Shown here: piece after piece, positions 1-3,809 of the stretch
How the letters are laid out: every line of letters begins with the position of its first letter
Position numbering within the stretch: position 1 is the stretch's first letter
Translations under genes and position numbers: made by a program
Source: Aureibaculum luteum
GTDB lineage: Bacteria; Bacteroidota; Bacteroidia; Flavobacteriales; Flavobacteriaceae
Assembly (NCBI RefSeq): GCF_003449015.1
Contig: NZ_QRGD01000001.1
Location: forward strand, 372,001-436,000
Direction: 5' to 3'
DNA: 64,000 nucleotides
Notes under the pieces: generated by a model
Databases searched by the model: none
Told to the model about the DNA's origin: nothing
Seen by the model: only the letters and a program-made list of their open reading frames with translations

Positions 1-1
1 A

Positions 2-571
2 ATTTGGTTATTTGGTTTAGGAAAAATTATTAATACCGAAACAATTACAGACTGGAGTAATGAACTAGGTATAGCCGAATCTAATCAATCACTTGTAATA
101 ATAGTAATGATTGTTCTATTATTAACTGTCGGTGTAATCAAAAATTTGGGTTCTACATTGGGTGAGGAAATTGGATGGCGTGGTTTTTTAATATTCGAAT
201 TGAGAAAAGTAATGTCTTTTAAATCACTAGCCATTGTAAGTGGAATAATTTGGGCAATTTGGCATTTCCCTATAATCAATTTGATGTATGGAAGTGGTGA
301 ATACCTTTTTTTACATATAAGTGCTTTTACTATAATGATAATTGGAATATCGGTAATATTGGCCTATTACACTTTCAAATCCAATAGTTTGTGGCCAGCA
401 GCTATCTATCACTCTATTCACAATATTTATATTCAAAAAATATGCACTCCTTTAACCATTTCTAATGATAAAACTTCCTTCTGGATTGATGAATATGGCC
501 TCATGATTCCTATTGTAACGACAATTTTTGCTATATACTTTTGGAGAAAAGCTAGTAAAGAGAATTTATAA
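2..571 (+). CDS. CPBP family intramembrane glutamic protease (5' end cut by window)
   Basis: The reading frame is open from base 2, so the true start lies left of the window; the stop is TAA at 569-571. The visible part has several hydrophobic helices and the three CPBP/Abi motifs: EEIGWRGFL (the EExxxR motif), WAIWHFP (second His motif) and HSIHN near the C-terminus (HxxxN). This family contains integral membrane glutamic proteases, such as CAAX-processing enzymes and bacteriocin self-immunity proteins. The substrate cannot be told from sequence. A downstream ATG at 107 exists but lies inside the family's membrane region, so it is unlikely to be the start. Confidence 0.85.
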   Translation: MWLFGLGKIINTETITDWSNELGIAESNQSLVIIVMIVLLLTVGVIKNLGSTLGEEIGWRGFLIFELRKVMSFKSLAIVSGIIWAIWHFPIINLMYGSGEYLFLHISAFTIMIIGISVILAYYTFKSNSLWPAAIYHSIHNIYIQKICTPLTISNDKTSFWIDEYGLMIPIVTTIFAIYFWRKASKENL

Positions 572-725
572 AATTTGAACCATTTATTTGAAGAATGTAT
601 AACTTGTGGTATTAATGAATATAAAGATATTGAGCAAACGATTTTTACAATGGTATTAGAAATAATATCGTATTAGTAATGTAATAATATTACTGTCGTC
701 TATACTCTAAATATCAAACTTAAAA
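572..725. other. Intergenic stretch, no supported gene
   Basis: AT-rich spacer after the CPBP gene. A short stop-bounded plus-strand frame runs to the TAG near 676, but it has no credible start and no recognisable motif, so I do not call it a gene. Confidence 0.5.
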
Positions 726-893
726 ATGAACTTATTATTCAAATCTATACAAGGAAAAAAAGAAATTTTAAGTCTATATGACGAAAAATTGAAAAAATTA
801 AATATTGTTGTAAAATTACAAGGTCGTTGGTACCAATCTAATTACGATTATTGCAGCCAATCTATAGAGGGAAAATCACCCATTTTGAGCTAA
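726..893 (+). pseudogene. Possible remnant of an alpha/beta-hydrolase N-terminus (55 codons)
   Basis: A short frame from ATG 726 to TAA 891-893. Its first 25 residues (FKSIQGKKEILSLYDEKLK and onward) resemble the opening helix of a group of small alpha/beta hydrolases. The rest does not continue into the strand-turn region or the GxSxG nucleophile elbow. I read it as a decayed fragment; it could instead be an unrelated small ORF. The similarity is from memory of the family, not from a search. Confidence 0.3.
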
Positions 894-917
894 GAAATAA
901 AATAATTTTTGAAGTAT

Positions 918-951
918 AAAAAAAGGATAAGCCTATTAAGTCTTATCCTTT
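918..951 (-). terminator. Rho-independent terminator of the micro-ORF array
   Basis: Perfect 10-bp inverted repeat AAAGGATAAG (922-931) / CTTATCCTTT (942-951) with a 10-nt loop. Read on the minus strand, the stem is followed by a run of U (seven A on the plus strand, 918-924, partly within the stem). Its position just after the last micro-ORF suggests that the array is transcribed leftward. Confidence 0.7.
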
Positions 952-986
952 ATCCGATTGATAGAATAGTTTTCATATTAATTAAG

Positions 987-1097
987 TTAATAACTATTTT
1001 GTCTATAATTTGACCAAAATGTTCTTTTTCCAATTTTTGATGGAAAAAACGGTATAATTTCCCATCTTTCTGATGATGTTTTAAGTATAGTGTTCAT
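987..1097 (-). CDS. Micro-ORF D of tandem array (36 aa), unknown
   Basis: ATG at 1097-1095, stop TAA at 987-989. The peptide starts MNTILKTSSERWEIIPFF and ends FWSNYRQNSY. Its aromatic, Arg-containing C-terminus loosely resembles the IWNTxRRY ending of the three upstream repeats. It is the last unit before the terminator and starts 122 bp after the start of micro-ORF C, close to the 118-bp period of the others. No function is recognised and no homologue family is known to me. It could be a diverged member of the same peptide family. Confidence 0.4.
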   Translation of the reverse strand: MNTILKTSSERWEIIPFFPSKIGKRTFWSNYRQNSY

Positions 1098-1135
1098 AAT
1101 TTAAAGTTTTAAGAGATTATTGTTTTTTTTTTAAT

Positions 1136-1219
1136 CTAACTGTATCGTCTATTAGTATTCCAAATAATACTTGATGCATTTCCTAAAGATAATTTCACTC
1201 TGTTTTTTAATGTTCTCAT
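1136..1219 (-). CDS. Micro-ORF C of tandem array (27 aa), unknown peptide family
   Basis: ATG at 1219-1217, stop TAG at 1136-1138. The peptide begins MRTLKNRVKLSLGNASS and ends IIWNTNRRYS. It is co-linear without gaps with micro-ORFs A and B. Shared positions are MRT-(I/L)-KN, KL-x-LG-(N/T)-ASS, IWN and RRY. Several differences between copies are synonymous, including Asn, Ser and Arg codons and the stop itself (TAA versus TAG), which argues for selection on the peptide. The start is preceded by an A-rich stretch like that of the other copies. It is basic, with no signal peptide and no membrane helix. Confidence 0.55.
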   Translation of the reverse strand: MRTLKNRVKLSLGNASSIIWNTNRRYS

Positions 1220-1253
1220 AATTTTTGTTTTTTTAATTATTAATTGTTTTATT

Positions 1254-1337
1254 CTAGTTGTATCTTCTATTGTCATTCCAAATACGACTTGATGCGGTTC
1301 CTAATGTTAATTTCAATTTGTTTTTTAATGTTCTCAT
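1254..1337 (-). CDS. Micro-ORF B of tandem array (27 aa), unknown peptide family
   Basis: ATG at 1337-1335, stop TAG at 1254-1256. The peptide begins MRTLKNKLKLTLGTASS and ends RIWNDNRRYN. It is exactly the same length as copies A and C, starts exactly 118 bp from each neighbour, and shares the A-rich leader before the ATG. Variable positions (K/Q/R, T/A/S, N/T, D/T) are scattered while the aromatic and Arg positions of the C-terminus are fixed. Function unknown. Confidence 0.55.
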   Translation of the reverse strand: MRTLKNKLKLTLGTASSRIWNDNRRYN

Positions 1338-1371
1338 TTTATTTGTTTTTATAATTAATAATTCTTGTTAT

Positions 1372-1455
1372 TTAGTTGTATCGTCTTTTTGTATTCCAAA
1401 TACAACTAGATGCGTTTCCTAAAGCTAATTTTACTTGATTTTTAATAGTTCTCAT
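1372..1455 (-). CDS. Micro-ORF A of tandem array (27 aa), unknown peptide family
   Basis: ATG at 1455-1453, stop TAA at 1372-1374. The peptide begins MRTIKNQVKLALGNASS and ends CIWNTKRRYN. It carries the only Cys among the three repeats. Its N-terminus (MRxxxNQV) is also shared with the longer micro-ORF E upstream. No processing enzyme, transporter or immunity gene is next to it; the upstream gene on the same strand is an MDR oxidoreductase. Function unknown. Confidence 0.55.
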   Translation of the reverse strand: MRTIKNQVKLALGNASSCIWNTKRRYN

Positions 1456-1502
1456 TTTATTTATTTTTTAATTAATGAAGGTCTACCCCTATAAATGGCT
1501 GA

Positions 1503-1631
1503 TTAGTTGATAAACAACTTTGAATAAAAAAAACTTGGTTCTGTCCAACGAATTTTTCTACTATCTTTTATAGTTAAATAGTAAACTATACTTCTAGATT
1601 CAGATGGCACTTGATTGATGAAATTTCTCAT
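1503..1631 (-). CDS. Micro-ORF E of tandem array (42 aa), unknown
   Basis: ATG at 1631-1629, stop TAA at 1503-1505. The peptide starts MRNFINQVPSESRSIVYYL and ends in a basic, aromatic tail (KIRWTEPSFFYSKLFIN). The opening MR-x-x-x-NQV matches micro-ORF A, so it may be the longest and most diverged member, or a leader of the array. It begins 53 bp after the end of the MDR oxidoreductase gene. Function unknown; being real depends mainly on its relation to the repeated copies. Confidence 0.4.
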   Translation of the reverse strand: MRNFINQVPSESRSIVYYLTIKDSRKIRWTEPSFFYSKLFIN

Positions 1632-1683
1632 GATTGATGTTTTTAGATTTTATGTATTGTTTGTACTTAAATAATAATTGTTT

Positions 1684-2664
1684 TTATTTTTTTTTGATAC
1701 TTAAGACTACATTTCCTGTTTTATGTCCAGTTTCAATATATCGGTGAGCATCGGCAACTTGTTCCAATGAATAGTGTCTATCGATTACGGACCTCAATTG
1801 TCCGTTCTCCATAAGTTCCTTGATTTCTATTAAAAAAGTTCGAATTGTTTCAATAGGAAGTGTTCCTGTTGCCGAAAACAAAGCCTTTTTACTCCCGAAA
1901 ATAGCCGTTTTCACCATCTGAAAAAGTAGTGACATACTGAGTACAGGCGAAATAAAAGCTCCGTTTTTCGTCAATGAATTTTTACACTTTGCAAACGTAC
2001 TTTTTCCCACAGTATCATAAATAATATCATAAGTTTTGCCGTTGTTAGTAAAATCTTCATGGGTGTAATCAATTACGTTATCGGCTCCGAGGGACTTTAC
2101 CAATTCTAAATTTCGAGTACTACAGACGGCTGTAATTTCAGCTCCAAAATGTTTAGCAATCTGTACCGCTGCTGTACCTAAACTCCCAGAGGCACCATTG
2201 ATCAAAATACGTTGACCGACTTTGATCTTTGCCAATTTCTTAAGAAAATTCATCGATGTTATATGTCCGTCTCCGACAACTGCGGCTTCTTCATACGATA
2301 TATTTTCAGGTTTTAAGGCAATTATCCCTTCCTCTTCAATACAAACATACTCTGCATGGGTTCCGAAATGGAAAAGTGATTCCCCAAAAACGGAATCTCC
2401 GATTTTGAACAATTGCACTTTTTCTCCAATAGCTTCTATTTTACCTGAAAAACCAGTTCCTGCAATTGCATTCTTCGGCTTTGTAAGTCCCATAAATAAT
2501 CTTCCTATGAGAGGATACCCAGTTCGCATCATAGTCCCCGCGGTGGTAATAGTTGCGGCGTAAATTTTTATAAGAACTTCGTTGTCCTTTGGAACAGGTT
2601 TTTCAACATTCCTTAGTTGAAGTACATCTGGTGATCCGTATTTTGTAGTTATTATTGCTTTCAT
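1684..2664 (-). CDS. MDR-superfamily NAD(P)-dependent alcohol dehydrogenase / quinone oxidoreductase-like
   Basis: 326 residues, normal length for the zinc-independent branch of medium-chain dehydrogenases. It has the GroES-like N-terminal fold (KPVPKDNEVLIKI), and a Rossmann dinucleotide site near residue 155 (INGASGSLGTAAVQIAK), typical of NADPH-binding quinone oxidoreductase relatives. It lacks the Cys cluster of structural-zinc alcohol dehydrogenases. Likely a cytosolic NADPH-dependent reductase of quinones, enones or aldehydes; the substrate is unknown. A TAnnTTTG-like promoter element lies 21-28 bp before the ATG. The micro-ORF array follows on the same strand. Confidence 0.85.
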   Translation of the reverse strand: MKAIITTKYGSPDVLQLRNVEKPVPKDNEVLIKIYAATITTAGTMMRTGYPLIGRLFMGLTKPKNAIAGTGFSGKIEAIGEKVQLFKIGDSVFGESLFHFGTHAEYVCIEEEGIIALKPENISYEEAAVVGDGHITSMNFLKKLAKIKVGQRILINGASGSLGTAAVQIAKHFGAEITAVCSTRNLELVKSLGADNVIDYTHEDFTNNGKTYDIIYDTVGKSTFAKCKNSLTKNGAFISPVLSMSLLFQMVKTAIFGSKKALFSATGTLPIETIRTFLIEIKELMENGQLRSVIDRHYSLEQVADAHRYIETGHKTGNVVLSIKKK

Positions 2665-2684
2665 ATTTTAGTTTTTATTTAAGG

Positions 2685-2692
2685 CAAATGTA
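2685..2692 (-). promoter_or_regulatory. Bacteroidetes-type -7 element (TACATTTG)
   Basis: Minus-strand TACATTTG matches TAnnTTTG and leaves a roughly 15-nt leader before the oxidoreductase ATG at 2664. No clear TTG -33 element is seen at the expected distance, so this is only moderately supported. Confidence 0.4.
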
Positions 2693-2750
2693 AGTGTAGG
2701 GTATAAGCCAGTCGTTCGGGTTTGAAAATCAGAACTAATTTGAAGAATCC

Positions 2751-3809
2751 TTAATTTTCATAAAAATCCCAGTTATGAGCTTTTCTTTTGCGTATTATTT
2801 TCACAATGCGGCTATAAAAGACTTCTGATAAGTTCCAGTTGTATCCGTCAAAATTGGTAGTATTGGTAAATTGAACTACAACTACGTCAATGTCTTTGTG
2901 GTATTTTGCAATACTCTGATAACCCACAACCAGTCCTGTATGTTCGTACTCATAGATAGACGAATATATTTCTTGTTCACCCGCTTTAAACACAGAACCG
3001 TCGTTTAAAGCTCGGATGAATATACCTACATCTTCTGCGGTAGCCACCATACCTTGATCTTCAAACTTAAAATCTTCATCAAATCCAACATAATAACCAC
3101 TCATCATGTCGTCAATATTTACATCATTCACTGATCCAAAAGTGTTTTTTAATCCGAGTGGCATTAATATTTCTTCTTTGATGTATTGAAAATGATCATA
3201 ACCCATTATCTTTTTAATAAGTTCACGAAGTAATAAATAATTGGTGTTTGAATACCCATAATCAGTATCTGGTGCAAAACTTGCTGGCATATCAAATGCG
3301 TAGGCAAGAGCTTCCTGGTGATTTGTGGAAGGTTTGTCCCAGAACTTAGGATGGTCAACGTAATTGGGTATGCCACTGCGGTGCTGAACCATCATTCTTA
3401 ACGTGATTTTATCTGCATGTTCAATTTTACCAACCATTTCAGGAAAATGATGGGCAAGGGTTTCATCTAAAGATATTTTTTTACCATGTACTAACTTGGT
3501 AATCGACACCGCAACATAAAGCTTACTGATACTAGCAATCTTAAATAATGATTTTGGGTTCGCAGGTATTTTGTACTCTCTGCTTTTTAATCCTGAAGCA
3601 TAGAATGCGGGTGCCTTACCAGCTTCATCAATATATACAATCATGCCGTCAAATCCGTATTCAATAGCAGTATTCATTTGTTCTTGAACAGTATCAGGTA
3701 GTGGTGTAACCCATGCTTTAACAATGGTCCAAGGTACAAACCATAAAGAGCCAATGCTTAGAGCAATAAATAGTATTCTTAATATATTTTTTGTTTGTCT
3801 TTTCTTCAT
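2751..3809 (-). CDS. Serine hydrolase, class C beta-lactamase / DD-peptidase fold
   Basis: 352 residues. An N-terminal signal anchor (about residues 9-30) puts the domain outside the cytoplasmic membrane. Catalytic motifs of the penicillin-binding/class C family are present: S93-I-S-K96 (SxxK nucleophile and base), Y186-S-N188 (YxN) and H290-T-G292 (the KTG-equivalent). The C-terminus is shorter than in true beta-lactamases. Likely a cell-envelope hydrolase acting on peptides, esters or D-amino-acid substrates. It is not evidence of antibiotic resistance by itself. Transcribed with or near the acyltransferase upstream (98-bp gap). Confidence 0.85.
   Translation of the reverse strand: MKKRQTKNILRILFIALSIGSLWFVPWTIVKAWVTPLPDTVQEQMNTAIEYGFDGMIVYIDEAGKAPAFYASGLKSREYKIPANPKSLFKIASISKLYVAVSITKLVHGKKISLDETLAHHFPEMVGKIEHADKITLRMMVQHRSGIPNYVDHPKFWDKPSTNHQEALAYAFDMPASFAPDTDYGYSNTNYLLLRELIKKIMGYDHFQYIKEEILMPLGLKNTFGSVNDVNIDDMMSGYYVGFDEDFKFEDQGMVATAEDVGIFIRALNDGSVFKAGEQEIYSSIYEYEHTGLVVGYQSIAKYHKDIDVVVVQFTNTTNFDGYNWNLSEVFYSRIVKIIRKRKAHNWDFYEN

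Follow-up and report, generated by a model that had tools for sequence, protein, structure and literature searches.

Tandem arrays of basic micropeptide genes in Flavobacteriaceae as a candidate output of ECF sigma and PadR/PspC regulation

The PSM-alpha operon of staphylococci encodes tandem leaderless peptides of 20 to 30 residues, which are amphipathic surfactants that are exported. On the regulatory side, the HAAS-PadR pair has been described as an alternative to two-component signaling, and the available portions of that account of HAAS-PadR and PspC-ToastRack systems describe sensor and regulator and name no micropeptide target (Ravi et al. 2024, PMC11237479). In F. psychrophilum, genes with SM6 ECF promoters include parts of the T9SS, and micropeptide arrays do not appear among them in the excerpted text of that study (PMC9723704). 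Here we describe tandem arrays of micropeptide genes that share some features with these systems. Such arrays were undescribed in the open PMC literature that we found, and five motif strings of the family were absent from the main text of open PMC papers.

A micro-ORF array and its peptide family

The window (the whole stretch of 64,000 nucleotides of Aureibaculum luteum DNA that was analyzed) carries on the minus strand, at 918-1631, five open frames of 42, 27, 27, 27, and 36 codons, in that order, followed by a hairpin, as read from the ORF listing and translations. The 27-residue peptides, which we call A type, are encoded on the minus strand at 1372-1455 (copy 1, ...CIWNTKRRYN; ORF list, translation, and an E value of 4e-17 against an A profile that contains this copy), 1254-1337 (copy 2, ...RIWNDNRRYN; ORF list, translation, and A profile), and 1136-1219 (copy 3, ...IIWNTNRRYS; translation and A profile). 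For copy 3, an upstream ATG at 1276 would extend the ORF to 46 aa. The original prediction placed these ORFs at an exact 118-bp period, and the repeat finder and TRF confirmed it: three units of leader plus ORF occupy 1126-1479 (minus strand), with copies at 1126-1243, 1244-1361, and 1362-1479 (100, 82, and 76% in the repeat finder) and a TRF score of 440. The predicted terminator corresponds to a hairpin followed by a T run at 918-951 (minus strand; -11.9 kcal/mol), a likely terminator although it was missing from the output of a simple terminator scan.

The outer two ORFs are of a different kind. The last in the array, at 987-1097 (minus strand; ORF list, translation, and profile comparison), had been read as loosely similar to the 27-mers; instead, it belongs to a second peptide type, C, since a profile of the 36-mers matched the C profile with an hhalign probability of 98.5%. 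The first, at 1503-1631 (minus strand), encodes a divergent 42-aa C-type peptide that sits in the C-type alignment, with a C terminus unlike the usual ending; its E value of 8e-17 against the C profile in its own genome is not independent, because that profile contains the 42-mer. An early assignment of the 36-mers to a 44-aa B type (WKGTKRYAH) was withdrawn after the profile comparisons.

Peptides of the A type follow the pattern MRTLNxNQ...KS..WNSKRRYR, are mostly 27 to 29 aa long, and end in W-N-x-K-R-R-Y-R. Those of the C type (MK....TPTES.....FSNF..SKRVRW.E.R.Y) have 36 to 39 aa and end in ...SKR-x-x-W-x-x-x-R-x-Y. Elsewhere, there are further types: the 44-aa B type, which ends in WKGTKRYAH and is placed after A copies, and a 33-aa D type. 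Arrays hold one to five tandem copies (types A and C). The A and C profiles reach only 7% in hhalign, too little to establish a shared ancestry of the two types.

The suggested search for homologues in relatives found them widely within the family. A-type genes were found by profile in 104 of 299 family genomes at an E value of ≤0.01 per genome, which allows about 3 chance genomes in 299, and C-type genes were found in 37 of 299 at an E value of ≤0.001 with a profile that fails to detect the divergent 36-mers of the genus to which the window belongs; both counts include the window's own genome. Treating the two surveys as one 299-genome draw, 137 genomes carry either type (4 carry both), yet there is no Pfam or NCBIfam model for the window peptides: none of the five had a match to either database at an E value of ≤1, in line with the prediction that no described family is known. 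Among near relatives, 7 of 60 genomes have homologues, own genome included. A phylum-level search matched 5 of 395 genomes, own included, all from the same family (the share of the 395 that lies outside the family was not listed). A tblastn search of phages and plasmids with one 28-aa family peptide gave no match at an E value of ≤1, such short queries having little power.

The same genome has two more loci. On contig C47, a second array has five copies, of which four are identical and the fifth is interrupted by a 16-nt palindrome, and it closes with a 36-aa ORF; on contig C40, a single 23-aa relative lies convergent with a DUF2807 ToastRack gene. The palindrome (TCCCGAA..TTCGGGA) was seen inside micro-ORF copies in two genomes (L009:5586-5601; L012:1794 and 1852; one copy imperfect). 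It ends the micro-ORF frame soon past the start and resembles a very small repeat of mobile or slippage origin; its perfect form is absent from the window.

Comparison of codon changes between copies, which the original prediction had proposed as a check, argues against neutrality. The dN/dS ratio was 0.201 for the A type (47 loci; 95% bootstrap interval, 0.166 to 0.250) and 0.165 for the C type (23 loci; 0.127 to 0.200), loci sharing an identical ORF having been dropped. Two genome collections have species in common (L013/L127 and L014/L134), and the calculation was repeated with the common loci dropped. For the three window copies, the pooled value was 0.255 in an analysis that excluded L020, pairs of unequal length, and identical pairs, and the synonymous excess per pair had binomial P values of 0.007, 0.034, and 0.13. 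The alignments thus indicate a coding family under purifying selection, as had been supposed. The window array is not a product of chance, since homologous peptides recur in many genomes and its copies show this synonymous excess. Tandem copies are not clearly homogenized: for 66 of 138 A copies, the nearest copy within the array was at least as similar as any copy at another locus.

These ratios also bear on whether the repeats could be regulatory RNAs in which the ORFs are incidental. The units are short, intergenic, and furnished with terminator-like hairpins, and many small RNAs are reported in the accessible part of the F. psychrophilum study (PMC9723704). However, a dN/dS of about 0.2 is not what such a reading predicts, the mean folding z score of 32 A units, taken as every sixth one from a set of 189, was +0.25, that is, no excess of structure, and Rfam covariance models gave no match at an E value of ≤1 in window positions 850 to 1750. 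We regard an RNA function as highly improbable. The leaders point to translation as well: A occurs at -3 in 95%, at -12 in 95%, and at -13 in 87% of 166 A-type leaders, so the A-rich leaders noted in the original prediction fit the normal Bacteroidetes initiation signal, positions of this kind being reported, in the portion of the work available, to tune initiation in F. johnsoniae (PMC6847099).

All peptide types are basic, with a mean net charge of about +6, and types A, B, and C have no strongly hydrophobic segment; the highest 15-residue hydropathy mean among 155 A peptides was 0.53, and among 62 C peptides it was 0.01. The sets used for dN/dS, charge, folding, and copy comparison were chosen by a regular expression that fixes residues 1 to 3 and the W, N, and R residues, so these positions are conserved by construction. 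AlphaFold2 models of the 36-mer (mean pLDDT of 69 for the best and 51 to 54 for the other four) gave a C-terminal helix too weak to use.

Short, cationic, tandem peptides with a variable middle, as the A peptides are, could be bacteriocins, signals, or RiPP precursors that are secreted and whose gene copies serve dose or variety, as the original prediction had suggested in part. A gene for a CAAX-type (Rce1-like) protease lies beyond the terminator, and this protease family sometimes occurs near bacteriocins. Against export, the peptides have no hydrophobic segment resembling a signal peptide; no maturation or export gene was recognized by eye in the 25 largest neighbor clusters among the promoter stretches listed; and residues 4, 7, and 8 near the N terminus of A peptides, which the regular expression does not fix, are conserved too. 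The suggestion of export gained no supporting evidence, and we consider it unlikely.

Promoter and dyad sites of the arrays

A GTAAC-N15-CGTC element was present within 160 nt upstream of 38 of 41 arrays identified purely through peptide homology, a subset of all arrays found (42 loci were taken and L238 was dropped). In a control, the same element occurred in 26 of 1,558 windows drawn from these loci, among them the windows with the arrays' own promoters. The three arrays without it in 160 nt are the window array, a 23-aa variant (L235), and L012, whose promoter sits further up, above copies broken by the palindrome.

The reverse search, with ATAGTACTGTAACA-N15-CGTCTA, returned at least 118 stretches. 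Among the matches listed, four end too soon, and of the 114 with room downstream, 110 lead to micro-ORFs (105 by a loose regular expression and 5 by eye: L080, L160, L172, L174, and L184), leaving four without them (L095, L096, L124, and L152). In L096, L124, and L152, a 151- to 188-aa protein with a hydrophobic N-terminal segment takes the place of the micro-ORFs at about the same promoter spacing. The distance from CGTCTA to ATG among the matches listed had a median of 38 nt and a range of 27 to 288 nt. Small ORFs this close behind a promoter might be uORFs or attenuation leaders regulating a downstream gene, and some loci do share neighbors, the largest cluster comprising 35 of the 118 stretches listed; these are mostly divergent upstream genes. 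No same-strand downstream gene is dominant, however, the commonest (ExbD-like by eye) being first in only 13 of the 118 listed, and both the window array and, by eye, the C47 array end in terminator-like hairpins. A leader function is the least probable of the readings considered.

The element recurs at an ECF sigma gene. In the window's own genome, two GTAACA-N15-CGTCTA-like sites, each with one mismatch, lie upstream of this gene, and GTAACA-N15-CGTC was found within 200 nt upstream of its orthologues in 24 of 24 genomes (L250 to L273). The operon continues with a putative anti-sigma factor (139 to 163 aa) and DUF4252-like proteins in the eight loci listed; in the own genome, DUF4252 was assigned by Pfam and the 145-aa putative anti-sigma factor had no Pfam match. 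The ECF sigma gene is therefore predicted to be autoregulated, and because of this autoregulation we infer that, among several ECF factors, it is the one that acts on the arrays. With the element at 38 of 41 arrays and all 24 sigma genes, though not at the window array, the arrays look like members of an ECF-sigma regulon. The ECF/anti-sigma/DUF4252 operon points to a defined regulon of this kind.

A dyad, AGTACTAT-N7-ATAGTACT, accompanies the array in 13 of 14 genomes, and the promoter -35 abuts it. Its left half, which the reverse search had not asked for, is conserved in 116 stretches among the matches listed, with TA at -13/-12 in 100%. A strict dyad regular expression matched at only 23 of 41 arrays, and G021 has ECF-type arrays without a dyad. 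Two GTTAA-like boxes precede the dyad at the array stretches among the matches listed. Two TGTTAA-like boxes about 11 bp apart were also seen before the dyad at many DUF4870-PadR-PspC loci (L217 to L228, L230, and L274 to L292), as at many arrays; they perhaps mark an additional factor or an UP element. A repressor-like dyad ahead of short ORFs in tandem would also fit type I toxin-like or membrane-active suicide peptides under tight repression, but the peptides lack a transmembrane-like segment and do not have the hydrophobicity of type I toxins, so we judge this very unlikely.

In the own genome, the same dyad lies upstream of a DUF4870-PadR-PspC operon. Among 16 dyad stretches that were picked by hand since their sites looked alike or were candidates, the dyad precedes a DUF4870-like gene in 13, of which 12 also show PadR and 4 show PspC; the other three (L229, L231, and L232) are not padR operons. 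Domains were checked by Pfam in L227 only, where the operon encodes DUF4870, PadR, and HAAS+PspC+LiaI-LiaF-TM+ToastRack domains; in the remaining stretches, genes for DUF4870, PadR, and PspC were assigned by sequence likeness. When PadR was located by an independent protein search, the dyad was found upstream in 14 of 19 further genomes, array bearing or not (a count without a shuffled control), and no good dyad preceded PadR in the other 5. In all 14, a primary-sigma TATATTTG, and not the ECF element, follows the padR-operon dyad by 10 to 12 nt. In G197, G213, and G247, the only two dyad sites are those at the array and the padR operon. PadR is the likely binder of the dyad, because the same dyad precedes the HAAS-PadR-PspC-ToastRack operon. 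The arrays, apart from the window array and those of G021, thus look like part of a HAAS-PadR-PspC regulon with which they share a candidate operator.

Neither pattern is specific on its own, and the evidence lies in where the sites fall. Allowing one mismatch, GTAACA-N15-CGTCTA matched 24 times in the own genome versus 15 times in the control, with many matches within genes. The dyad pattern matched 67 times over 14 genomes versus 36 times for the reversed control, and 5 versus 10 times in the own genome.

The window array as an exception

Both the dyad and the family promoter are absent at the window array; GTAACA-N15-CGTCTA was not found within two mismatches on the array's strand of the window. 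The sole minus-strand match to the primary-sigma -7 element TANNTTTG between 980 and 4000 lies at 2685-2692, upstream of a zinc-type oxidoreductase gene (1684-2664, minus strand; Pfam PF13602) that is 52 bp upstream of the array on the same strand. This oxidoreductase gene had no match at an E value of ≤1e-60 in 7 of 8 genus genomes searched, out of 16 seen among the near relatives, and a match with 47% identity in one. The window array itself is 78.5% identical to the G016 array over 442 bp, through the terminator region. Because it is without the family promoter and sits in an accessory segment, the window array is probably a displaced copy, and it may ride on the tail of the oxidoreductase transcript or be silent. 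The idea of a small-peptide operon under selection for the peptide holds for the coding family and its purifying selection; that the window array forms an operon with a promoter of its own is not supported, since the family promoter is absent there.

The window array, as distinct from the family, could also be decaying and nonfunctional. The missing family promoter, the odd C terminus of the 42-aa ORF, and the accessory neighborhood all speak for decay, whereas none of the five frames is interrupted and changes among the copies show a synonymous excess, which perhaps predates the move. Decay is a substantial possibility, short of an even chance.

By Pfam, the genes of window positions 1 to 3809 encode the CAAX-type protease, the oxidoreductase, and a beta-lactamase-family protein. 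An isolated 55-aa ORF without a Pfam match lies at 726-893 (plus strand); we take it to resemble the N terminus of an alpha/beta hydrolase, perhaps as a gene remnant. A two-mismatch match considered as its promoter was dropped, because chance alone would give about 3 of them in the window. Farther along, 37420-63096 holds a run of large ORFs, several over 700 aa, presumably alpha-mannosidase and related glycan use genes with a LacI-type regulator.

Proposed role and comparison with described systems

The explanation that we favor, and hold to be reasonably probable, is that the arrays are the output of an ECF plus PadR/PspC switch, that their leaderless basic peptides act inside the cell, and that the window array is a displaced member; the exported-toxin, RNA, and leader-peptide readings fit worse. 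Under this explanation, envelope stress would free the ECF sigma factor, and HAAS/PspC would take PadR off the dyad. The array would then be transcribed and each ORF translated independently from its A-rich Bacteroidetes start, a step that the leader sequences support. Tandem copies would raise the dose, and the peptides, as putative stress-induced cationic intracellular peptides, would use the conserved aromatic/arginine motif at their C terminus to act on a partner that they share. Tentatively, and as something possible rather than probable, we suggest the anionic face of the inner membrane or the PspC/ToastRack sensor as the most likely partner, the peptide being a protectant or a feedback ligand. 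A more speculative proposal, which we think rather unlikely as it stands, is that the arrays form a dedicated peptide arm of the Flavobacteriaceae envelope stress response, with dose-adjustable arrays, interchangeable peptide types in one promoter slot, and a C-terminal W...R..Y motif that would bind the HAAS/PspC/ToastRack sensor or PadR itself inside the cell and so close a peptide feedback loop.

In form, the nearest analogue is PSM-alpha of staphylococci, both systems consisting of tandem leaderless short peptides. They differ in chemistry, peptides of the window's family being polar as well as basic, and in that no exporter was recognized. The likeness to the Rfp small RNAs and SM6 ECF promoters of F. 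psychrophilum lies, as far as the available text of that study goes, in short transcripts (PMC9723704). The autoregulated operon of ECF sigma, putative anti-sigma, and DUF4252 genes has GTAACA-N15-CGTC upstream, as the arrays do; it differs in that the arrays encode peptides and not envelope proteins. With the HAAS-PadR and PspC-ToastRack systems, in the portions of their description at hand (PMC11237479), the common feature is the array dyad, which also precedes an operon with these domains (L227). As a candidate output of HAAS-PadR-PspC stress systems, the arrays make the question of what these systems switch on testable. The regulators are of known kinds; what is apparently new in this comparison is the family of peptides, together with the tandem arrays that would set their dose.
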